DNA of 34,874 nucleotides from Actinomycetota bacterium (GTDB lineage Bacteria > Actinomycetota > Acidimicrobiia > IMCC26256 > BP-133): NCBI GenBank assembly GCA_030838785.1, contig JAUZEY010000207.1:1-34874 (forward strand), given 5' to 3'. The position numbers and the translations under genes were made by a program. Of the stretch, positions 4,857 through 15,712 are shown in pieces (position 1 is the first letter of the stretch; every line of letters begins with the position of its first letter). The notes under the pieces were generated by a model. It did not search any database. It was not told the DNA's origin and worked only from the letters and a program-made list of their open reading frames with translations.

Positions 4857-5924
4857 GTGAAGATGCATCGTCGCATGCGGACGGGCGTGGCGGTCGGCCT
4901 GCTGGCCGCGCTGGCCCTGGCCGGCTGTGGATCAGATTCCAAGAAGTCTGCCGAGGGCGGCGCCGTCAAGGGTGCCGAGAAGGTGACCCTCCGCCTCGGC
5001 TACTTCACGAACATCACCCATGCCTCGGCGCTGGTGGGTCTGGAGAAGGGCATCTTCGCCGACAAGCTCGGCCCGAACGTGACCCTGACCCCGAGCGTCT
5101 TCGCCGCCGGGCCGGCCGCCGTGGAGGCCATCTTCAGCGGCGCCATCGACGCCACCTACGTCGGGCCCAACCCGGCCATCAACGCCTTCGCCAAGAGCAA
5201 CGGTGAAGCGGTCCGGATCATCTCCGGGGCCACCTCCGGCGGAGCGTTCCTGGTGGTGAACCCGTCCATCGCCAAGCCGGCCGACCTCAAGGGCAAGAAG
5301 GTCGCCACCCCCCAGCTGGGCAACACGCAGGACGTGGCGCTGCGCAGCTGGCTCAAGGCCAACAAGCTCTCCAGCGACACCCAGGGCGGCGGTGACGTCT
5401 CGGTCGTGCCCCAGGACAACGCCCAGGCGCTGGAGGCCTTCAAGGCGGGGTCGATCGCCGGGGCCTGGGTGCCCGAGCCCTGGGCCACCCGCATGGTGCA
5501 GGAGGGCAAGGGGAAGGTCCTCGTCGACGAGAAGACCCTCTGGCCCGGCGGGCAGTTCGTGACCACCCAGCTCATGGTGCGGACCGCGTTCCTGAAGGAC
5601 CACCCGGACGTCGTCCAGCACCTCCTCGAGGGCCAGGTGGCGGCCACCGACTTCCTCAACGCCAACCCGGCCGAGGCCAAGACGCTGGCCAACCAGGCCA
5701 TCCAGAAGGTGGCCGGGAAGGCCCTGCCCCAGGCCGTCCTCGACGCCGCCTGGCCCAACATGACCTTCACCAACGACCCCATCGCCGCCAGCCTCCGCAA
5801 GGGCGCCGACAACGCCAAGGCCGTCGGTCTCCTCGACGCCGGCACCAAGCTCGACGGGATCTACGACCTGACGCTGCTGAACAAGGTCCTGAAGGCGGCC
5901 GGCAAGCCGGAGGTGAAGTCGTGA
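4857..5924 (+). CDS. ABC transporter substrate-binding lipoprotein (SsuA/TauA/NrtA-like)
   Basis: Lipobox LALAGC; LRLGYFTNITHASALVGLEKGIFADKLG, FSGAIDATYVGPNPAINAF. Confidence 0.85.
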   Translation: MKMHRRMRTGVAVGLLAALALAGCGSDSKKSAEGGAVKGAEKVTLRLGYFTNITHASALVGLEKGIFADKLGPNVTLTPSVFAAGPAAVEAIFSGAIDATYVGPNPAINAFAKSNGEAVRIISGATSGGAFLVVNPSIAKPADLKGKKVATPQLGNTQDVALRSWLKANKLSSDTQGGGDVSVVPQDNAQALEAFKAGSIAGAWVPEPWATRMVQEGKGKVLVDEKTLWPGGQFVTTQLMVRTAFLKDHPDVVQHLLEGQVAATDFLNANPAEAKTLANQAIQKVAGKALPQAVLDAAWPNMTFTNDPIAASLRKGADNAKAVGLLDAGTKLDGIYDLTLLNKVLKAAGKPEVKS

Positions 5925-6724
5925 GTGCGCTCCGTCTGAGCCCGGGGCGCGCCGCCGAGACCACCTCGGCTCCCGCCCCCGGCAGCCCGGCCATCTCGGT
6001 CGACGCCGTGACCAAGGTCTACGGGCCCCGGGGCAACCACACCTTCGCCCTCGACCGCATCTCCCTCGAGGTGGCCCCGGGCGAGTTCTGCTGCCTGGTC
6101 GGCGCCTCCGGCTGCGGCAAGAGCACGCTCCTCAACCTGCTGGCCGGGCTCGACTCGCCGGCCGCCGGCACGGTGGCGGTCCACGGCCGTACCTCGCTCA
6201 TGTTCCAGGAGTCGGCGCTGTTCCCCTGGCTGTCGGTGCGGGGCAACATCAACCTGGCCCTGCGGCTGGCCGGCGTCCCCAAGGGCGAGCGCTACGACCG
6301 GGCCAGTGAGCTGCTCCGCATGGTGCGGCTCAAGGGCTTCGGCGGCAAGCGGCCCCACGAGCTCTCCGGCGGCATGCGCCAGCGGGTGGCGCTGGCCCGG
6401 TCCCTGGCCCAGAACGCCTCCGTCCTCCTCATGGACGAGCCGTTCGGCGCCCTCGACGCCATCACCCGCGACCTGCTCCACGACGAGCTCGAGCGGGTGT
6501 GGCAGGAGACCGGCCTGTCGGTCGTGTTCGTGACCCACAACGTGCGGGAGGCCGTCCGCCTCGGCGACCGGGTGCTGGTGCTGTCGAGCCGCCCCGGCCG
6601 CGTCGTCGACGAGTTCCCCGTCGACATCCCCCGTCCCCGTCGCCTCGACGACGCCGAGGTGTCCTCCCTGTCCGGCACCATCACGGACCGTCTCCGCCAG
6701 GAGGTGCGCCGCCATGGCGCTTGA
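5921..6724 (+). CDS. ABC transporter ATP-binding protein (SsuB/TauB/NrtD-like)
   Basis: Walker A GASGCGKSTL, signature LSGGMRQRVALARSL, Walker B VLLMDEPFGALD; GTGA overlap with upstream gene. Confidence 0.9.
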   Translation: MSALRLSPGRAAETTSAPAPGSPAISVDAVTKVYGPRGNHTFALDRISLEVAPGEFCCLVGASGCGKSTLLNLLAGLDSPAAGTVAVHGRTSLMFQESALFPWLSVRGNINLALRLAGVPKGERYDRASELLRMVRLKGFGGKRPHELSGGMRQRVALARSLAQNASVLLMDEPFGALDAITRDLLHDELERVWQETGLSVVFVTHNVREAVRLGDRVLVLSSRPGRVVDEFPVDIPRPRRLDDAEVSSLSGTITDRLRQEVRRHGA

Positions 6725-7616
6725 GATCCAGGATCCCCCCGTCCTGAGTGACCGGGAGGCCGAGATCGCCGGCCTCGACGCCCTCGACGTCCCCCTCGCC
6801 TCGGCCCGGGGCAAGCTGGCCCGGGCCTGGGAGGGCCTGTGGCCCAAGCTGACCGCCCTGGGGCTGTTCCTGTTCGCCTGGCAGGCCATCGTCTGGTCCC
6901 ACTGGAAGCCGGACTACGTCCTGCCCGGCCCCATGACGGTGCTGAACAAGATGTGGCACGACCTCGTCGACACCGGCGGTGCCGCCGGGCCGCACGTCCT
7001 GCTCCACGCCGCCGGCACGACGATGCAGCGGGCCGTGGTCGGCTACGGCATGTCGGTCGTCATCGGCGTGGTCGTGGGCCTGGCCGTGTCCCGCAGCCGG
7101 ATCCTCCGGGCCGGCGTCGGGTCGATGATCACCGGCCTGCAGACCATGCCGACGATCGCCTGGCTGCCGCTGGCCGTGCTGCTGTTCAAGCTGTCCGAGA
7201 CCGCCATCACCTTCGTGGTCGTCATGGGGGCGGCGCCGGCCATCGCCAACGGCGTCATCTCCGGGGTGGACCACATCCCGCCGGTCCTGCTGCGGGCGGG
7301 CCGGGTGCTCGGGGCCAGGGGCCTCAGTGCCTACCGTTTCATCATCCTTCCCGCCGCCCTCCCGGGCCTCGTGGCCGGGCTGAAGCAGGGCTGGGCCTTC
7401 GCCTGGCGGTCCCTCATGGCCGGTGAGTTGATCGTCATCATCGCCCACAAGCCGTCGCTCGGGGTCCGGCTGCAGAACGCCCGGGACTTCTCCGACGCCC
7501 CCGGCCTCATGGCCGCCATGCTGGCCATCTTCGTCATCGGCGTCGTCATCGACTCGCTCTTCTTCGGCGTCCTCGAGCGGGGCATCCGCCGCCGCTGGGG
7601 CCTGGGCAGCCGGTAG
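6714..7616 (+). CDS. ABC transporter permease (SsuC/TauC-like)
   Basis: Hydrophobic helices and EAA-like loop GARGLSAYRFIILPAALPGLVAGLKQGWAFAWRSLMAGEL. Confidence 0.88.
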   Translation: MALEIQDPPVLSDREAEIAGLDALDVPLASARGKLARAWEGLWPKLTALGLFLFAWQAIVWSHWKPDYVLPGPMTVLNKMWHDLVDTGGAAGPHVLLHAAGTTMQRAVVGYGMSVVIGVVVGLAVSRSRILRAGVGSMITGLQTMPTIAWLPLAVLLFKLSETAITFVVVMGAAPAIANGVISGVDHIPPVLLRAGRVLGARGLSAYRFIILPAALPGLVAGLKQGWAFAWRSLMAGELIVIIAHKPSLGVRLQNARDFSDAPGLMAAMLAIFVIGVVIDSLFFGVLERGIRRRWGLGSR

Positions 7617-7624
7617 CTACGACG

Positions 7625-8080
7625 ATGCGCGAAGTCGGCATGCAAGTGACGGCCAAGGCCGAGTACGCCCTCCGGGCGGCGACGGTGCTGGCCTCGGCGG
7701 GGCCCGGGCCGGTCAAGAGCGAGACGATCGCCGACGCCGAGGACATCCCCCTGCGGTTCCTCCACAACATCCTGGCCGCCCTCACCCGGGGTGGGATCCT
7801 GACCAGCCTGCGGGGCGCCGACGGCGGCTACGAGCTCTGCCGGGACGCAGCCACGATCACCGTGGCCGACGTCATCCGGGCGGTCGAGGGGCCGTTCGCC
7901 GCCGGCGGCGGCCCCGAGATACCCACCGCAGTCTCCGGCGCCCGGCGGGAGACGCTCCGGGCCGTGTGGGCCGTCCTGCGGGCCAACGAGCGAGCCGTCC
8001 TCGAGTCGGTCACCCTGGCCGACCTGGCCGCCGGCCTCCTGCCCGAGATGACCTCGGTCGGACGGGCGCCGTCGGCCTAG
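7625..8080 (+). CDS. Rrf2 family transcriptional regulator without the Fe-S cysteine set
   Basis: VTAKAEYALRAATVLA...IPLRFLHNILAALTRGGILTSLRGADGGYEL...ITVADVIRAVEG; only one Cys in the protein. Confidence 0.85.
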   Translation: MREVGMQVTAKAEYALRAATVLASAGPGPVKSETIADAEDIPLRFLHNILAALTRGGILTSLRGADGGYELCRDAATITVADVIRAVEGPFAAGGGPEIPTAVSGARRETLRAVWAVLRANERAVLESVTLADLAAGLLPEMTSVGRAPSA

Positions 8081-8091
8081 TCTGGGCCTTC

Positions 8092-8892
8092 GTGGCAACC
8101 CTGGTCAGCTTTCACGCCCACCCCGACGACGAAGCGATCGCCTGCGGCGGCACCATGGCCAAGGCCGCCGCCGCCGGGCACCGGGTCGTCCTGGTCACGG
8201 CCACCTCGGGCGAGTGCGGCGAGGTGGCCGACGGCGTCCTCGACCCGGGCGAGACGCTGGGGGAGCGGCGCCAGAAGGAGCTGGCCGAGGCGGCCGAGAT
8301 CCTCGGCGTGGCCCGGGTGGAGATCCTGGGCTACCGCGACAGCGGCATGATCGGCACTCCGGAGAACGAGGACGCGGGGTGCTTCTGGCAGACGCCGGTC
8401 GACGAGGCGGCGGCCCGCCTGGCTCGCATCCTGGCCGAGGAGCGGCCGGACGCCCTCACGGTCTACGACGAGCACGGCAACTACGGCCATCCCGACCACA
8501 TCCAGGTCCACCGGGTCGGCGTGCGGGCGGCGGAGATGGCCCGGGTGGAGCGGGTCTACGAGGCGACGCTGAACCGCGACGAGTTCCGGCGGCTCATGGC
8601 CCGGGCCACCGAGCTCGGCCTTCCCGACGCCGCCGACCTGCCCGACATGGAAGACGTGGGCGACCAGATGGGGCTGCCCGAGGAGCTTCTGACGACGGCG
8701 GTCGACGTGTCGTCGCAGCTCGAGGTCAAGCGGCGGGCGATGGCCGCCCACGCCAGCCAGATCGACGAGAACTCTTTCTTCCTCACCATGCCGCCGGTCG
8801 CCTTCGCCGCGGCCTTCGGCACCGAGTGGTATCGGCGTCGCGGGGCGCCCCCCGGCCTGCGCGAACGGGAGATCCTCCCCAACGGGCTGTGA
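8092..8892 (+). CDS. PIG-L family deacetylase (MshB/Mca-like)
   Basis: HAHPDDEAIACGGTMAKAAAAGHRVVLVTAT...HGNYGHPDHIQVH; GTG start at 8092. Confidence 0.85.
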   Translation: MATLVSFHAHPDDEAIACGGTMAKAAAAGHRVVLVTATSGECGEVADGVLDPGETLGERRQKELAEAAEILGVARVEILGYRDSGMIGTPENEDAGCFWQTPVDEAAARLARILAEERPDALTVYDEHGNYGHPDHIQVHRVGVRAAEMARVERVYEATLNRDEFRRLMARATELGLPDAADLPDMEDVGDQMGLPEELLTTAVDVSSQLEVKRRAMAAHASQIDENSFFLTMPPVAFAAAFGTEWYRRRGAPPGLREREILPNGL

Positions 8893-8898
8893 GCGAAC

Positions 8899-8959
8899 GT
8901 TTCCACGCTGGAAACACAAGCGAAAACGGCCCAGCACAGACACTTCGTAGCGTTCTGCT
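8899..8959 (+). promoter_or_regulatory. Candidate operator GTTTCC-ACGCT-GGAAAC (8899-8915) and -10-like TAGCGTTCTGCT (8948-8959)
   Basis: Perfect 6-bp inverted repeat with 5-nt spacer; same arrangement as at 10035-10095. Confidence 0.6.
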
Positions 8960-9006: not shown

Positions 9007-9873
9007 ATGCCCATACCCATTGCCGAAGCCGTCTCGGAGCAGGCCGATCTGGCCCGGACGAAGGCGGTGGCGGCAAAGAACGTTCCGAAATTCCTGTTCT
9101 CCTCCGCGCTGGCCGGGGCCTACGTCGGCGTCGGGATCGTCCTCCTGGCCGCCACCACCGGGCCTTTGGCAGCGGCGAACTCTCCAGCCGTCAAGCTCGT
9201 CGCGGGGGCTGTCTTCGGAGTCGCTCTGACGCTGGTGATCATGGCCGGCGCGGACCTGTTCACCGGTCTGAACATGATCATGCTGCAGGGCTTGGCGGCG
9301 GGGACCGTGAATGCGCTCGAGCTCCTCTTCGTCTGGATCTCGTCGCTGGTGGGAAACCTGATCGGCGCTCTCGCCTTCTCCTGGCTGATAAACGCCGGCG
9401 GAACGCTGTCGGCGAAGACCCCGGCCGGGAAGCTCGGCCCGGGTGAGGCGTTCCTGGAGTCCCTGGTGAAGGCCAAGAACGCCGCGCCGGGCGCCCAGCT
9501 CTTCTGGCGGGCGCTGGCCTGCAACATGCTCGTCTGCCTGGCGGTGTGGATGGCCGCCCGGACGCGCAACGACGCCGCCAAGGTGATGGTCGTCTGGTGG
9601 TGCCTCATGGCGTTCATCGCCGTCGGCCTGGAGCACTCGATCGCCAACATGACGATCTACGGCGTGGCCATCTACCACCACGCCGCCGGGTATTCGGACC
9701 TCCTCCGCAACCTGACCTGGACCGTGCCGGGGAACATCGTGGGTGGGGGGCTCGTCATCGGCCTCGGCTACGCCTGGATCGCCGGGAAGAGTTCGGCGAT
9801 GCCGGCGGAAATGGTCGAGCCAACCCCGGTTGGCTCCAACGGGATGGCGGCGGAGGCGGCGGTCGCCCGCTGA
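9007..9873 (+). CDS. Formate/nitrite transporter (FNT) family channel
   Basis: AGADLFTGLNMIMLQG, FVWISSLVGNLIGA, AVGLEHSIANMTIYGVAIYHHA; RBS AAGGAG upstream. Confidence 0.9.
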   Translation: MPIPIAEAVSEQADLARTKAVAAKNVPKFLFSSALAGAYVGVGIVLLAATTGPLAAANSPAVKLVAGAVFGVALTLVIMAGADLFTGLNMIMLQGLAAGTVNALELLFVWISSLVGNLIGALAFSWLINAGGTLSAKTPAGKLGPGEAFLESLVKAKNAAPGAQLFWRALACNMLVCLAVWMAARTRNDAAKVMVVWWCLMAFIAVGLEHSIANMTIYGVAIYHHAAGYSDLLRNLTWTVPGNIVGGGLVIGLGYAWIAGKSSAMPAEMVEPTPVGSNGMAAEAAVAR

Positions 9874-9905
9874 TTCAGCCCTCGTCGAGCAACACCCGAC
9901 CGTAA

Positions 9906-9939
9906 GCGGGGCCCGACGCAAGTCGGGCCCCGCTCTTTT
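9906..9939 (+). terminator. Rho-independent terminator after FNT gene
   Basis: GCGGGGCCCGAC-GCAA-GTCGGGCCCCGC followed by TCTTTT; perfect 12-bp stem. Confidence 0.85.
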
Positions 9940-9951
9940 GCGTCAATACCG

Positions 9952-9979
9952 TTCGAATGTTTCTCAATAGCCATTCGAA
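9952..9979. promoter_or_regulatory. Inverted repeat TTCGAATG-N12-CATTCGAA
   Basis: Perfect 8-bp arms in an AT-rich intergenic island between FNT and copper operon. Confidence 0.45.
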
Positions 9980-10034
9980 TTTAAAGGGATAAGAACGTCG
10001 GTCGGCGGCTGCTAGAAGTTCCAAGCGAGATCCC

Positions 10035-10095
10035 GTTCTCTGGTTGGAAACATTCGGCAAACGGCTGCGACGCAAACGTTTCCTAGCGTCCTGCT
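10035..10095 (+). promoter_or_regulatory. Candidate operator GTTCTC-TGGTT-GGAAAC (10035-10051) and -10-like TAGCGTCCTGCT (10084-10095) of the copper operon
   Basis: Same layout and identical 32-nt spacing as the FNT upstream region. Confidence 0.6.
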
Positions 10096-10244
10096 TGCGG
10101 TGGTTTGTCCGTTGTGTCCGCTTGCGGCGCTGACGGGACCTCCCACCCGCTGGCGCCCCATCGGGGGCGAAAACCCCGCATGTCCTTGCCGCCTTACATC
10201 ACACCAGATCGGGGTTGCACACCCGAGAAAGGGGCTGCGCCGCA

Positions 10245-12254
10245 GTGAGAGAAACCACCAAACGACCGCGCGGAAGCATCAGGAGGAAGCTGCTCGGGCT
10301 TCCCGCTCTGCTCCTCCTTGCGACTGTCGTCGGCACGGCGAGCCTGGCCGGTTTGGCCGGGGCGTCCTCGTCACAGGGGGGAGCGAAGTTCGACGCTGCC
10401 ACCTGGAAGCCGACGCTCGACAGTCCGCTCCCGCCGATGGAAGCGCCGCTGTCGTTCCACCTGAGCGACCAGCCGGCGTACTGGTACGACAACGGTCGAG
10501 CCGACCTCGAAGGAATCCTGCACACCCGCTCGCTGTCGGCGGCGGTAGCCGGGGTTCCGACGAAGGTGAAGTTCGAGATCGGTGAGCCGTACACCAGCCA
10601 GACCCACACCGTTTCCAGCATCGTCTGGCCGGTGGGGGCCAAGGGAGTGCCCTTCATCCAGCAGGGGTCCTTCGCCGGGGAGACCGAGTTCGAGCTCTCC
10701 TCGCCGGGCCTCTACGTGTTCCAGTGCCGGGTCCACCCCTACATGCTCGGGGCCGTCGTCAACGACGACCCGACCACGCCGGGCGCCGACCTGGGCAAGT
10801 CGGTCCACTGGATCGACGGTACCGACATGCCGACCGCTTCCGACGAGATCCTCTTCATCGTCTCGAAGTTCTTCATCGTGACGGAGCCGGCCAACTGGCA
10901 GTACTACTCGCCCGACCACCCGGTCGTGTGGGACCCGCAGTTCCCGAGCGCCCCGGTGATGACCGGCAACGCCGACGGCTCTCCGAACCTGATTCCCAAC
11001 CTCAACGACTACTTCCACGCCAAGTACCACCTGCCCCAGACCCTCAACCCGCCGACCAAACCTGACGTCCAGGCCGTGGGCGACATGATGGTCGACACGC
11101 AGTTCGAGAAGTCGGCCGGCAAGGACAAGCCCGGCTCCATCACCACGTTCGACGGTTCGACGTGGGAGATGGACCGCAAGATGTTCCTGCCGTCGATCAA
11201 TATGAACAACCCGCACAACATGGGCCTGAGCCGTGACCAGAAGACCCTGTTCCAGAGCCAGTGGTTCTCGAACAAGGTCACGGCGATCGACCTGGCTACC
11301 GGCAAGGAGCTCCACACCACGGAAGTCGGACCGTCCCCGTCGCACGTCATGCGGCGTCCGGGCACCGACACGCTCATCGTTCCCAACAACGGTGGCAACC
11401 GGATCGTGGAGCTCGACCCCGCCGGGTCGAAGGTGATCAAGTCGTACTTCACCCAGGCCCCGGGTCAGGACCCTGCCTTCCCCCACGCCCACTGGGTGAG
11501 CTTCGACGGGAAGCACGTGGTCACCCCGAACTCGAACGAGTCCAACGCTTCGCTGTTCGACCTCAGCGTGCCGAACATGGTCAAGCCGTTCTCCGGCGGG
11601 TTCCCCGTCGCGACGTCGATGACCAACGACGGCAAGCGGGCGTACGTGGCCAACCTCCTCGACCACACCATCCGGTGTTTGTCGGTGGATGCGCCCGCCT
11701 GCCCGACGCCTGACGGTTCGATCAAGGATACGTACTCGATCGACCTGCGGGAGCACTACAACAAGATCAGCGGCGAGTCGAACGGCCCCTACGGCCTTTC
11801 GCCGATCCAGCTGCCGGTCAGCCCCGACGACCACTACATGCTGGTGGTCGGCACCTTCACCGGCAACGTGCTCGAGATCGACATGAAGACGAACAAGATC
11901 GTCAAGTCGTTCCCGTGCGGTCCCGGTTGCCACGGCATCAACTTCGGCGCCAAGAAGGGCGGGGGCTACCTCGGTTACGTGTCGGTCAAGTTCGCCAACG
12001 TCGCCTGGGTCATCGACGGTGACCCCAACAGCGACGGCGACCTGTCCGACGCCCGCCTGACCGGTGGCGTCATCACCAGTGGCGCAGCCACCAAGATCAA
12101 CGACGACACGCCCAGCTCGCAGTTCGGGCAGGGCGGCCAGGGCGTCTGGGCCTACCCCGAGGTCTACAACGGGTGGGTGCAGGAGCTGCCCGACGAGTGG
12201 AAGTCCCAGTTGACCTGCCAGCAGCAGAACCCGCTCCTGAAGGCGGTCTGCTAA
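10245..12254 (+). CDS. Exported cupredoxin-beta-propeller (YVTN-like) fusion protein
   Basis: Tat/Sec-like signal (SIRRKLLGLPALLLLA); T1 Cu ligands QTHTVSS...FQCRVHPYM; repeats such as PHNMGLSRDQKTLF, SHVMRRPGTDTLIV; GTG 10245 preferred because AAAGGGG lies 9 nt upstream. Confidence 0.8.
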   Translation: MRETTKRPRGSIRRKLLGLPALLLLATVVGTASLAGLAGASSSQGGAKFDAATWKPTLDSPLPPMEAPLSFHLSDQPAYWYDNGRADLEGILHTRSLSAAVAGVPTKVKFEIGEPYTSQTHTVSSIVWPVGAKGVPFIQQGSFAGETEFELSSPGLYVFQCRVHPYMLGAVVNDDPTTPGADLGKSVHWIDGTDMPTASDEILFIVSKFFIVTEPANWQYYSPDHPVVWDPQFPSAPVMTGNADGSPNLIPNLNDYFHAKYHLPQTLNPPTKPDVQAVGDMMVDTQFEKSAGKDKPGSITTFDGSTWEMDRKMFLPSINMNNPHNMGLSRDQKTLFQSQWFSNKVTAIDLATGKELHTTEVGPSPSHVMRRPGTDTLIVPNNGGNRIVELDPAGSKVIKSYFTQAPGQDPAFPHAHWVSFDGKHVVTPNSNESNASLFDLSVPNMVKPFSGGFPVATSMTNDGKRAYVANLLDHTIRCLSVDAPACPTPDGSIKDTYSIDLREHYNKISGESNGPYGLSPIQLPVSPDDHYMLVVGTFTGNVLEIDMKTNKIVKSFPCGPGCHGINFGAKKGGGYLGYVSVKFANVAWVIDGDPNSDGDLSDARLTGGVITSGAATKINDDTPSSQFGQGGQGVWAYPEVYNGWVQELPDEWKSQLTCQQQNPLLKAVC

Positions 12255-12261
12255 CCCAATC

Positions 12262-13737
12262 ATGCGCCGTTTCCTGATCGGCGCCCTTCTCGCCGCCGCC
12301 GGGGTGTTCGTCACCCCGGCGGCGGCTTGGGCCCATGCCGAGCTCCTGTCCTCCACCCCCGGCTACGGGGACCACCTGCCCACCGCGCCGGCCGAGATCC
12401 GGCTCGAGTTCTCGGGCGCCATGGACCTCACCGGCTCCCGCCTCACGTTGCAGCACAAGGGCGGAAAGACCGAGGCGCTGGGTCACCCGGCGCTGGCGTC
12501 CCCGGACCGCCGGGTGGTGGCGGTTCCCCTTCCGCCCAAGCTGGGCGACGGCGGATACTCCCTCGTCTGGTTCTTCCTCGGCAACGACGGCCACCTCATG
12601 GGCGGGGACATCGAATTCGCAGTCGGAAGGGCCGCACCGGAAGGCTCCGCCACCGTCGCCGCGTCGGCGGGCCGCGTCGAACCGACGGCCAAGGTCCGCT
12701 CGCTCGGGGACGGCATCGCCGGCCCCGCCATCGAACTGCAGGCCAGCACCGCTCCGGCACCGGCCCCGAAACGGGCCCGGTTCACCATTGCCGTCGCCAC
12801 TCCCCAGGCCGCCGTCCGCTTCCTCGACTACGCCAGCCTCGCCACCCTGATCGGCGGTGGGGCGTTCCTGGCCCTGGTGTGGACCGACGGCACCCGCGAG
12901 CGCCGGGCGCAGCAGCTGCTGTGGTGGGCGCTGCTCGGCTCGGCCGGCGCCACGCTGCTCAGCTTCGGCCTCACCGCCGCCGGCCTGCGGGGCGTCGGGG
13001 CCCTCGACGCCCTCCGCCCGTCCGTCATGAGTGCCGTGCTCGGCACCCGCTTCTCCCGGATCATCACGGCCCGGGCCGGGTTCCTGGCGTTGGGTTTCGT
13101 CGCTCTGGCCCTGCTGACGCTGGGCCGGGACCGGGCGGTCAGCTCCCGGTGGTGGCAGGGCCTGGCCGGAGTCGCCGCGGGCGGGGTGCTGGTCACCCAC
13201 GCCCTGCTCGGGCACGCCTCCAGCGAAGGTCTCCTGGCCCGCGTGGCCGTGCTGGTCCATATCGCCGGCGTGTCCGTCTGGCTCGGCGGTCTCATCTTTC
13301 TCGTCGTCGTCGTGCTGCCGCGACGGCGCCCCGACGAGGTCCGCGTCCTCCTGCCCCGCTTCTCCAGCCTGGCCTTCACGGCGGTGGCGGCCATGGTGGT
13401 GGCCGGGGCGGTGATGGTCACCCGGGTCGTGCCGAGGCTGAGCGCGCTGCCGCAGACCGGTTACGGCCGGATGCTGCTGCTCAAGCTGGCGTTCGTGGCG
13501 CTCCTGCTCGTGGCTGCCCAGCAGGCCCGCACCTTCACGGAGCGCCGCCTGGTGAAGGACTCCACCCGGCTGCGCCCGCTGCTCACCGCCGTGGGCGTGG
13601 AGCTGACCCTGGCCATCGTCATCCTCTCCTCGACCGCCGTGCTGGTGGGCCGGGTGCCGCCCACCACCCGCACCAACCGCACTGCTGCACCAATCGTCAC
13701 TGCACCGATCGTCACTGCACCGAAAGGACCGGGATGA
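12262..13737 (+). CDS. CopC-CopD fusion copper transport/resistance protein (YcnJ-like)
   Basis: AHAELLSSTPGYGDHLPTAPAEIRLEFSG (CopC), FFLGNDGHLMGG, followed by multi-TM CopD region. Confidence 0.85.
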   Translation: MRRFLIGALLAAAGVFVTPAAAWAHAELLSSTPGYGDHLPTAPAEIRLEFSGAMDLTGSRLTLQHKGGKTEALGHPALASPDRRVVAVPLPPKLGDGGYSLVWFFLGNDGHLMGGDIEFAVGRAAPEGSATVAASAGRVEPTAKVRSLGDGIAGPAIELQASTAPAPAPKRARFTIAVATPQAAVRFLDYASLATLIGGGAFLALVWTDGTRERRAQQLLWWALLGSAGATLLSFGLTAAGLRGVGALDALRPSVMSAVLGTRFSRIITARAGFLALGFVALALLTLGRDRAVSSRWWQGLAGVAAGGVLVTHALLGHASSEGLLARVAVLVHIAGVSVWLGGLIFLVVVVLPRRRPDEVRVLLPRFSSLAFTAVAAMVVAGAVMVTRVVPRLSALPQTGYGRMLLLKLAFVALLLVAAQQARTFTERRLVKDSTRLRPLLTAVGVELTLAIVILSSTAVLVGRVPPTTRTNRTAAPIVTAPIVTAPKGPG

Positions 13738-14213
13738 TCACACCACTACGCGCTGCCGCCCTCGCGGTCGCGACGGCGTTGCTCGTACCGATGGTGACGT
13801 CCGGCCCGGCCCGGGCCGAGGAGCACACCGACGAGATCAAGGGCCTCGCTTTCAACCCGGACCAGCTGTCGGTCCGGGCCGGTGACGCCGTCACCTGGGT
13901 CAACCACGACAGCGACAAGCATCACCTGCAGGGTGACGGGTTCGAGTCGAAGGATCTGCCCAACAACAGCACGTTCACGGTCCAGTTCCCGGAGCCGGGG
14001 GAGATCGCCTACCACTGCACGATCCACACCTATATGGAGGGCAAGGTCGTCGTGTTGAACCCCGACGGCAGCACGCCGCCTTCCACCGCCGGAGAGCCCG
14101 AGGCGCCGCCCGCCCCGTCGACCACGACGTCGAGCACCAACCCGCCCGGCCCGCTGGACGGCGTGCCGGCGGCGCCCGCACCGGCACCGCCCGTACCGGC
14201 GCCGAAGCGATGA
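13734..14213 (+). CDS. Exported amicyanin/plastocyanin-like blue copper protein with Pro-rich C-tail
   Basis: FNPDQLSVRAGDAVTWVNHDSDKHHLQG...GEIAYHCTIHTYMEGKVVV; ATGA overlap with copCD. Confidence 0.85.
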   Translation: MITPLRAAALAVATALLVPMVTSGPARAEEHTDEIKGLAFNPDQLSVRAGDAVTWVNHDSDKHHLQGDGFESKDLPNNSTFTVQFPEPGEIAYHCTIHTYMEGKVVVLNPDGSTPPSTAGEPEAPPAPSTTTSSTNPPGPLDGVPAAPAPAPPVPAPKR

Positions 14214-15433
14214 GCAGGAGGGACACCGAGATGCGACAGACACGCCTGAACCTCCTCCTGGCCACGATCCTCACGGTCAACCTGATCGGTGTCGGGGTGC
14301 TCGTGGCCCGGACGGCCGAGCGGCGCCCGGTCACGGTGCGGGCCGGGGCCTCACCGAAGTACGACCTCAGCGCTCCGGATCAGCTGCCGGGAGAGATCTC
14401 CGTCGCCCCCGAATCCGGTTCGGGCAGCGGCCGCCCCGACAGCTTCGTCGGGGGCGCCGCCCGGGGCGACGGCACCGTCTTCGCCAAGTACGACGTGGCC
14501 GACGACGGCGCCAAGGTGTTCAAGCTCGACGCCGCTCCCTACACCTGGATCGTGGCCCCGGGCGTGAAGAAGCAGGCCTTCGCCTACAACGGCACCGTTC
14601 CCGGGCCGACGATCCGGGTCATCGAGGGCGACAAGGTGCGGGTGGTGGTGAGCAACCACCTGCCGATGGGAACCGCCGTCCACTGGCACGGCATGGTGCT
14701 GCCCAACAAGATGGACGGCGTCCCCGGCATCACCCAGGACCCGATCGAGCCGGGCGCATCGATGACCTACGAGTTCGTCGCCGTGGCCACCGGGACGCAC
14801 TGGTACCACAGCCACTTTGACGGCGACCAGGTCGGCAAGGGCCTCTACGGCTCCCTGGAGGTCGTGCCCCACACCGGGGACCGGGCCGTCGACCGCGACT
14901 ACCGGTTGTTCGTCGGTGACACGAACCTCGGCTTCGTGATCAACGGCCGGACCTATCCGGGCACGGAACCGCTCAAGGCCAAGGTGGGGGAGAAGATCCG
15001 GATCCGGCTCACCCCGACCGGTGAGCTCTCGCACCCCTTCCACCTCCACGGCCAGCCGTTCCAGCTGGTGGCCCAGGACGGGTTCGACTTACCCCAGCCC
15101 ATCACGATGGACACGCTGCTGATATCGACGGCCCAGACGTTCGACATCATCACCGTGGCGCTGGCGCCGGGGAAGTGGATGTTCCACTGCCACATCTTCA
15201 GCCATATGCACGCCGCAGGGCCGCATGCCGGGCACCAGATGGCGGGCCTCGTCACGACGCTCGACGTCGAACCCGCCGCGGTGCCCGCCGCTCCGCCGCT
15301 CAACGGCGTCAACCCCGCCGTCGGCGTGCCGTCCGCTCCCGTCACCCCCGGCCCCGACAACCCGCCCGGCGGTGACCCGAAGGACAAGGACAAGAACGGA
15401 GGGGGCACCGCCCCGCCGGGCGACCATCACTGA
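14210..15433 (+). CDS. Two-domain multicopper oxidase
   Basis: AVHWHGMVLPN, HWYHSHFDGDQ, LSHPFHLHGQPF, MFHCHIFSHMHAAGPHAGHQM; ATGA overlap with upstream cupredoxin. Confidence 0.85.
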   Translation: MSRRDTEMRQTRLNLLLATILTVNLIGVGVLVARTAERRPVTVRAGASPKYDLSAPDQLPGEISVAPESGSGSGRPDSFVGGAARGDGTVFAKYDVADDGAKVFKLDAAPYTWIVAPGVKKQAFAYNGTVPGPTIRVIEGDKVRVVVSNHLPMGTAVHWHGMVLPNKMDGVPGITQDPIEPGASMTYEFVAVATGTHWYHSHFDGDQVGKGLYGSLEVVPHTGDRAVDRDYRLFVGDTNLGFVINGRTYPGTEPLKAKVGEKIRIRLTPTGELSHPFHLHGQPFQLVAQDGFDLPQPITMDTLLISTAQTFDIITVALAPGKWMFHCHIFSHMHAAGPHAGHQMAGLVTTLDVEPAAVPAAPPLNGVNPAVGVPSAPVTPGPDNPPGGDPKDKDKNGGGTAPPGDHH

Positions 15434-15447
15434 ACGCTGACGCCTTG

Positions 15448-15483
15448 ACCACCCGCTGGGCTGGGGCGAGCCCAGCGGGTGGT
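15448..15483 (+). terminator. Terminator-like hairpin after copper operon
   Basis: ACCACCCGCTGGGCT-GGGGCG-AGCCCAGCGGGTGGT, perfect 15-bp stem, no T-tract. Confidence 0.6.
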
Positions 15484-15712
15484 CGGCAGCGGACCGGATC
15501 GCTGGAGACGCCACTCCATCCTGGACCCCGTCACGATCGGGGTGGTTCTGCGTTGCGGGCCGCGCTCCCTCTACGGACAATTGCCGTGCCTCCGCCGGAA
15601 GCGGGGCAAGGTCGGACTCCCGTCGCGGCATCGGCATCGAGTCGTCATACGTTTGCAACTGTCCATGGCGCAACCGCTCCAGCGCAGGGCGAGGCCGGTA
15701 GCCTGAGCGCCG

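Follow-up and report, generated by a model that had tools for sequence, protein, structure and literature searches.

What is the task of four copper-protein genes that lie almost end to end, one of them coding for a protein that joins a cupredoxin to a propeller, behind a gene for a channel of the formate/nitrite transporter (FNT) family? The question is raised by a stretch of 34,874 nucleotides (the window) from a bacterium of the phylum Actinomycetota, class Acidimicrobiia (assembly GCA_030838785.1, contig JAUZEY010000207.1), which is contig C328 of the draft genome G000 (78% complete). A sequence-only reading of this DNA had placed an FNT channel, a cupredoxin-propeller protein, a CopC-CopD (CopCD) fusion, an amicyanin-like blue copper protein and a two-domain multicopper oxidase (MCO) at 9007–15433, and the whole gene set was verified there. 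Here, we tentatively propose that the four copper genes encode an exported copper redox chain, with the FNT gene as a separate transcription unit. The proposal builds on four copper proteins with type 1 copper (T1) and MCO ligand sets and with export or membrane signals, on their recurrence in other genomes and on domain fusions.

The four-gene unit

The unit, its boundaries and the channel gene that precedes it are laid out as follows.

9007–9873, + strand: FNT-family channel (PF01226, E 1.4e-56)
9905–9934, + strand: intrinsic terminator at the boundary of FNT and the four-gene unit, with a 13-bp perfect stem, a 4-nt loop and a T-rich tail, CTTTTGCG
10245–12254, + strand: cupredoxin-propeller protein, exported (from alignments; homologs in G001, G002, G162 and Methylocystis)
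12262–13737, + strand: CopC-CopD fusion (PF04234, E 8.4e-16; PF05425, E 2.7e-14)
13734–14213, + strand: amicyanin-like exported blue copper protein, CTIHTYM (PF13473, E 6.1e-10)
14210–15433, + strand: two-domain MCO, type B by its ligand motifs, with an N-terminal membrane anchor (PF07732 and PF07731)
15447–15484, no strand assigned: hairpin 3' of the MCO gene, a 16-bp perfect inverted repeat with a 6-nt loop and without a T run

The tight coupling of the genes was confirmed: 7 nt separate the propeller and CopCD genes, and ATGA overlaps join CopCD to the amicyanin-like gene and the latter to the MCO gene. The propeller gene begins with a GTG at 10245, with a TTG at 10215 as a possible alternative start. 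The module had also been described as bounded by hairpins; both are present, but the first falls within the interval claimed and, because this terminator (9905–9934) separates FNT from the propeller gene, FNT lies outside the four-gene unit.

Recurrence and domain fusions

Homologs of the propeller protein were sought in overlapping samples of the order of the window organism (58 genomes in all), its class (395), its phylum (397) and the order of a further carrier, G162 (397). They were found in two more genomes of the window genus (G001 and G002) and in G162, which belongs to another family of the class; beyond these and G000, the four samples held none. Two Methylocystis rosea plasmids carry a homolog (35% identity over 86% of the length), a scan of genome contigs yielded one partial copy, and viral contigs and phages gave zero homologs. 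The propeller protein is rare and patchy in its distribution.

Downstream of the orthologous copies in G001 and G002 come the genes for CopCD and MCO. The G162 propeller protein bears an extra, fused amicyanin-like domain at its N-terminus, and about 25 nt 3' of its gene an amicyanin-MCO fusion is encoded, followed by a CopC-CopD fusion; over 275 residues, the MCO part shares 55% identity with the window MCO, and the domain fused to it shares 41% with the amicyanin-like protein of the window. In Methylocystis, a two-domain MCO is encoded 28 nt 5' of the propeller gene. The claim of an undescribed, conserved exported copper module is therefore borne out, since its core (propeller protein, MCO, amicyanin-like domain and CopCD) recurs in the window genus and in G162, and the MCO-propeller pair recurs in Methylocystis. 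Such recurrence, in varied orders and fusions, is hard to ascribe to chance and argues for a functional interaction. Because G162 has an amicyanin-like domain fused to each of the two, MCO and propeller protein (Rosetta-stone evidence), a role in electron transfer is credible; this part of the sequence-only reading stands, whereas the substrate it suggested, nitrite or nitric oxide (NO), is left mostly unsupported.

The partner proteins

The MCO of the window carries HWH (158) and HSH (200, no Cys) in domain 1 and HLH (278) and HCH (326) in domain 2. The same ligand layout is seen in the G162 and Methylocystis enzymes, and the T1 site and the four HxH pairs of the trinuclear cluster are complete in all three. 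Type-B two-domain MCOs are defined by a T1 site in the C-terminal domain (PMC13151041) and, because the T1 ligands sit in domain 2 and all four HxH pairs are present, the window, G162 and Methylocystis enzymes are, judged by their motifs, type-B two-domain MCOs with a laccase-like ligand set. The solved structures nearest to the window MCO are 3g5w and 2zwn, two-domain laccase-like oxidases whose T1 Cys lies in domain 1. Judged by the family, such an enzyme would by default be expected to reduce O2.

The MCO had also been set beside relatives that reduce nitrite. In NirK, the T1 site lies in domain 1; in the window MCO it lies in domain 2, and TIGR02376 scores 53.9 bits against a cut-off of 296, so that the ligand positions and the family score together rule out a NirK. 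Nor was any NirK found over the cut-off in the four actinobacterial carriers (G000, G001, G002 and G162), an absence that is not proof where genomes are 78–89% complete, as G000–G002 are.

Both domains of the CopCD fusion pass the Pfam gathering scores (CopC, 59.2 against 23.3 bits; CopD, 53.8 against 32.1) and stay under the NCBIfam equivalog cut-offs; a predicted mature N-terminal His (AWA followed by HAELLS) and a DGH are present as in CopC. For the amicyanin-like protein, TIGR02657 is the best NCBIfam match, with 46.8 bits missing the cut-off of 110, and the C-x2-H-x2-M ligand loop is in place.

The cupredoxin-propeller protein

The N-terminal domain of this protein holds a complete amicyanin-type T1 set (a His, then CxxHPYM), and its propeller is of the seven-bladed, YVTN type. 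In alignments of homologs that are 35–51% identical, the invariant propeller residues include H324, H367, H414, H563, Q522 and the C558/C562 pair of a CxxxCH motif, numbered from the start at 10245. With blade starts read by eye, H324, H414 and H563 directly follow the first motif position, H367 and Q522 lie one residue later, and one blade has no such His or Gln at its start. In partial alignments, generic YVTN propellers of the relatives do not show the full set, but they frequently share a His at two of the positions. From this pattern, we hypothesise that the invariant His, Gln and Cys residues form a metal site at the predicted hub of the propeller; the CxxxCH could alternatively form a disulfide or bind haem c. 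No Pfam or NCBIfam family matches the protein over its full length, and a literature search found no paper joining cupredoxin, YVTN and multicopper oxidase: every domain is known already, and the cupredoxin-propeller architecture is undescribed. That the protein should be a new copper oxidoreductase, with a YVTN-type propeller and a novel hub metal centre (four His, Gln and CxxxCH) connected to a type-B MCO by fused T1 domains, and found in actinobacteria and on a methanotroph plasmid, is a bolder proposal, which we hold to be rather doubtful.

The same residues bear on a nitrogen-oxide system, in which the propeller would act like nitrous oxide (N2O) reductase or the module would turn over nitrite or NO supplied via FNT. 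Consecutive blades start with a His and one blade lacks it, as in the CuZ site (PMC11573801), and among NCBIfam families L-NosZ (NF052460) scores highest for the propeller proteins of the window and Methylocystis, but far below its cut-off of 700 bits (38.2 and 62.7 bits; 36.0 for G162 and 26.3 for G002). Moreover, the cupredoxin is an N-terminal T1 domain, not CuA, and four invariant propeller His occupy these positions, not seven. The Methylocystis cluster continues with folE, a NorB-type gene, SirB2 and NnrS, which brings the NorB-type gene and NnrS to within ~1–5 kb of the MCO-propeller pair, yet the NorB-type frame is split by an in-frame TAG stop at the same place in both plasmids, and the copper ATPase and Cus efflux genes near this cluster speak just as strongly for copper homeostasis. 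COX1-family matches in G000–G002 resemble ordinary oxidases by score, save one fragment, and the lack of a NirK over cut-off in the four actinobacterial carriers likewise speaks against this explanation, which we consider improbable. The split NorB-type frame lies at 14973–17288 of L039 and near 11615 of L040, the two plasmid loci, where PLSDB annotates no gene.

A copper site inside a seven-bladed propeller is also the general idea behind methanethiol oxidase (SBP56/SELENBP1; PMC10362175), and the module might accordingly be a thiol or sulfur-compound oxidase, with sulfonate-type ATP-binding cassette (ABC) transporters near it in the window and in G162. However, the propeller protein has no Pfam SBP56 match at E values up to 0.01, the HxxH and HH motif pairs of SELENBP1 (PMC10362175) are not among its invariant residues, and the nearness of the transporters is probably coincidence, their binding proteins being 24% identical in the best segment; we regard this minor alternative as very improbable. 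The transporters, of a sulfonate/nitrate type, lie at 4857–7616 of the window and at 14971–17640 of L044, and were rejected as a conserved partner of the module for the same low identity.

Copper homeostasis as the main rival

The chief competitor of the redox chain is periplasmic copper homeostasis or detoxification, in which there would be no dedicated substrate: CopCD would handle copper, the MCO would oxidise Cu(I), and the binding or shuttling of copper would fall to the cupredoxin-propeller and amicyanin-like proteins. It draws on the adjacency of CopCD, on the best NCBIfam family of all three MCOs, which is a CopA-type copper resistance oxidase, though far below its cut-off, and on the copper P-type ATPase and two CusA-type efflux systems that lie within ~25 kb on either side of the Methylocystis copy. 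This last observation is one of several that weigh against the redox chain and the hub site. A divergent propeller copy in G002 (51% identity) has CopCD next to it and no MCO, with a divergent cytochrome oxidase operon alongside, and for a second copy in G001, the 5.5 kb that were read 3' of it contain no CopCD and no MCO. The AlphaFold models are of unusable mean confidence (pLDDT 34.5 for the whole protein and 32.0 for the propeller alone), so that the hub geometry and metal binding stay hypothetical. The inclusion of CopCD in the module, another part of the sequence-only reading, is in turn partly upheld: CopCD adjoins the propeller gene or the MCO gene in the window, G002 and G162, as in the actinobacterial loci that can be read on that side, but is absent at the second G001 copy.

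On the other hand, two or three T1-type electron carriers exceed the needs of detoxification, and homeostasis leaves the invariant set at the propeller hub unexplained. The scan of neighbours in the window revealed neither a copper P-type ATPase nor a copper regulator, and one of the G002 copies adjoins a respiratory oxidase operon. Copper homeostasis is a real possibility, although we do not expect it to account for the module. The divergent G002 propeller paralog and the operon it faces lie in 8772–14491 of L034 (G002:C6); the operon encodes, at 13553–14491, a protein in which two cupredoxin-like domains stand in tandem.

The FNT channel and a shared promoter element

By PF01226 the channel belongs to the FNT family (192.1 bits against a gathering score of 34.6). 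It misses the NCBIfam equivalog cut-off for NirC (183.6 bits against 293), but its nearest solved relatives are nonetheless NirC (4fc4, E 9.5e-48) and other formate/nitrite channels (3tdo, E 2.4e-46). The sequence-only reading had staked its case on linkage of FNT to the copper genes in other genomes, and this fails in G162, which is 97% complete and has no FNT. A search of the four actinobacterial carriers gave two copies in G000, one in G001 and none in G002 or G162, the single G001 copy corresponding to the second, unlinked copy of G000. The G001 and G002 contigs end inside the propeller gene, so that the FNT side is not visible and these genomes are uninformative; FNT as a conserved core member is ruled out by its absence from G162, which places it outside the conserved module. 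The second G000 gene (11427–12119 of L038, G000:C359) is a different FNT with a close copy in G001, and is not linked to the copper module.

In the window genome itself, the two transcription units have similar upstream elements.

8909–8959, + strand: promoter-region element 5' of FNT, TGGAAACA-N31-TAGCGTTCTGCT, partly overlapping the palindrome GTTTCCACGCTGGAAAC at 8899–8915
10045–10095, + strand: promoter-region element of the four-gene unit, resembling the FNT element

The two regions have TGGAAACA and TAGCGTnCTGCT in common at the same spacing, and 33 of 51 bases are identical in an ungapped comparison whose length was picked after the match was seen. Among 1000 dinucleotide shuffles the highest value was 31, and among 211 other pieces of the window it was 29; at a length of 40 bases, 19 of 1000 shuffles equalled the observed match, and a gapped local alignment was equalled by 40 of 2000 shuffles. 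When up to three mismatches are allowed, the four genomes contain the motif at just these two sites, from which it was derived. Because the match exceeds all 1000 shuffles, it is plausible that FNT and the four-gene unit are co-regulated in the window genome, or that a promoter was duplicated there. The common promoter sequence favours the nitrogen-oxide explanation, against which stands the lack of FNT in G162. A regulon of the palindrome GTTTCC-N-GGAAAC was rejected, as only two sites were found, one 5' of FNT in G000 and one elsewhere in G002.

Two further genes lie upstream in the window. An MshB/Mca-like PIG-L deacetylase gene (8095–8892) is immediately 5' of FNT on the same strand, and a gene for an Rrf2-family regulator (7625–8080; 105 bits), whose best specific matches are CymR, IscR and, weakly, NsrR, lies 3' of the ABC transporter genes.

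Proposed mechanism and significance

For the redox chain, we envisage that CopCD delivers copper and loads the other proteins of the module. The propeller protein would then bind a small reduced substrate at the putative hub metal site and pass electrons from the hub to its own type 1 copper, from where the amicyanin-like protein would carry them to the type-B MCO, which would reduce O2 to water. FNT, in its separate transcription unit, may be switched on together with the module in the window organism. The observations do not discriminate among nitrite, NO, thiols and Cu(I) as candidate substrates.

Should the hub site prove catalytic, the small group of known copper propeller enzymes (N2O reductase and methanethiol oxidase) would gain a further class, and a periplasmic oxidation that has gone unrecognised would be added to uncultured actinobacteria and to some methanotrophs. 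Because of the gene fusions, the electron path lends itself to direct tests. If the module serves only copper homeostasis, it still defines an undescribed family of copper proteins that is now labelled hypothetical in databases.

Comparison with known systems

NosZ and the lactonase-type L-NosZ are, like the propeller protein, copper proteins that combine a seven-bladed propeller with a cupredoxin and place His residues where consecutive blades begin. In N2O reductase, six of the seven blades give His to CuZ, the seven His ligands lying in the N-terminal propeller and the CuA cupredoxin at the C-terminus (PMC11573801). The window protein reverses this domain order, has T1 in place of CuA and has four invariant His, a Gln and CxxxCH. 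Its His arrangement appears reminiscent of CuZ, with a different number and order, and membership of NosZ or L-NosZ is ruled out by the N-terminal T1 cupredoxin, the four invariant His and the low NF052460 scores. SBP56/SELENBP1 is a propeller with a proposed hub copper site (PMC10362175), from which the window propeller differs in its motif set and in having no match to the family. The CopC and CopD domains are both present as in known CopC/CopD systems, here in one fusion protein, but their neighbours in the window are redox proteins rather than CopA/CopB. Finally, the MCO has the two cupredoxin domains, the T1 site in domain 2 and the four HxH pairs of type-B two-domain MCOs, SLAC-like and others (PMC13151041), and differs from them in its partners, which are an amicyanin-like carrier, either linked or fused to it, and a cupredoxin-propeller protein.

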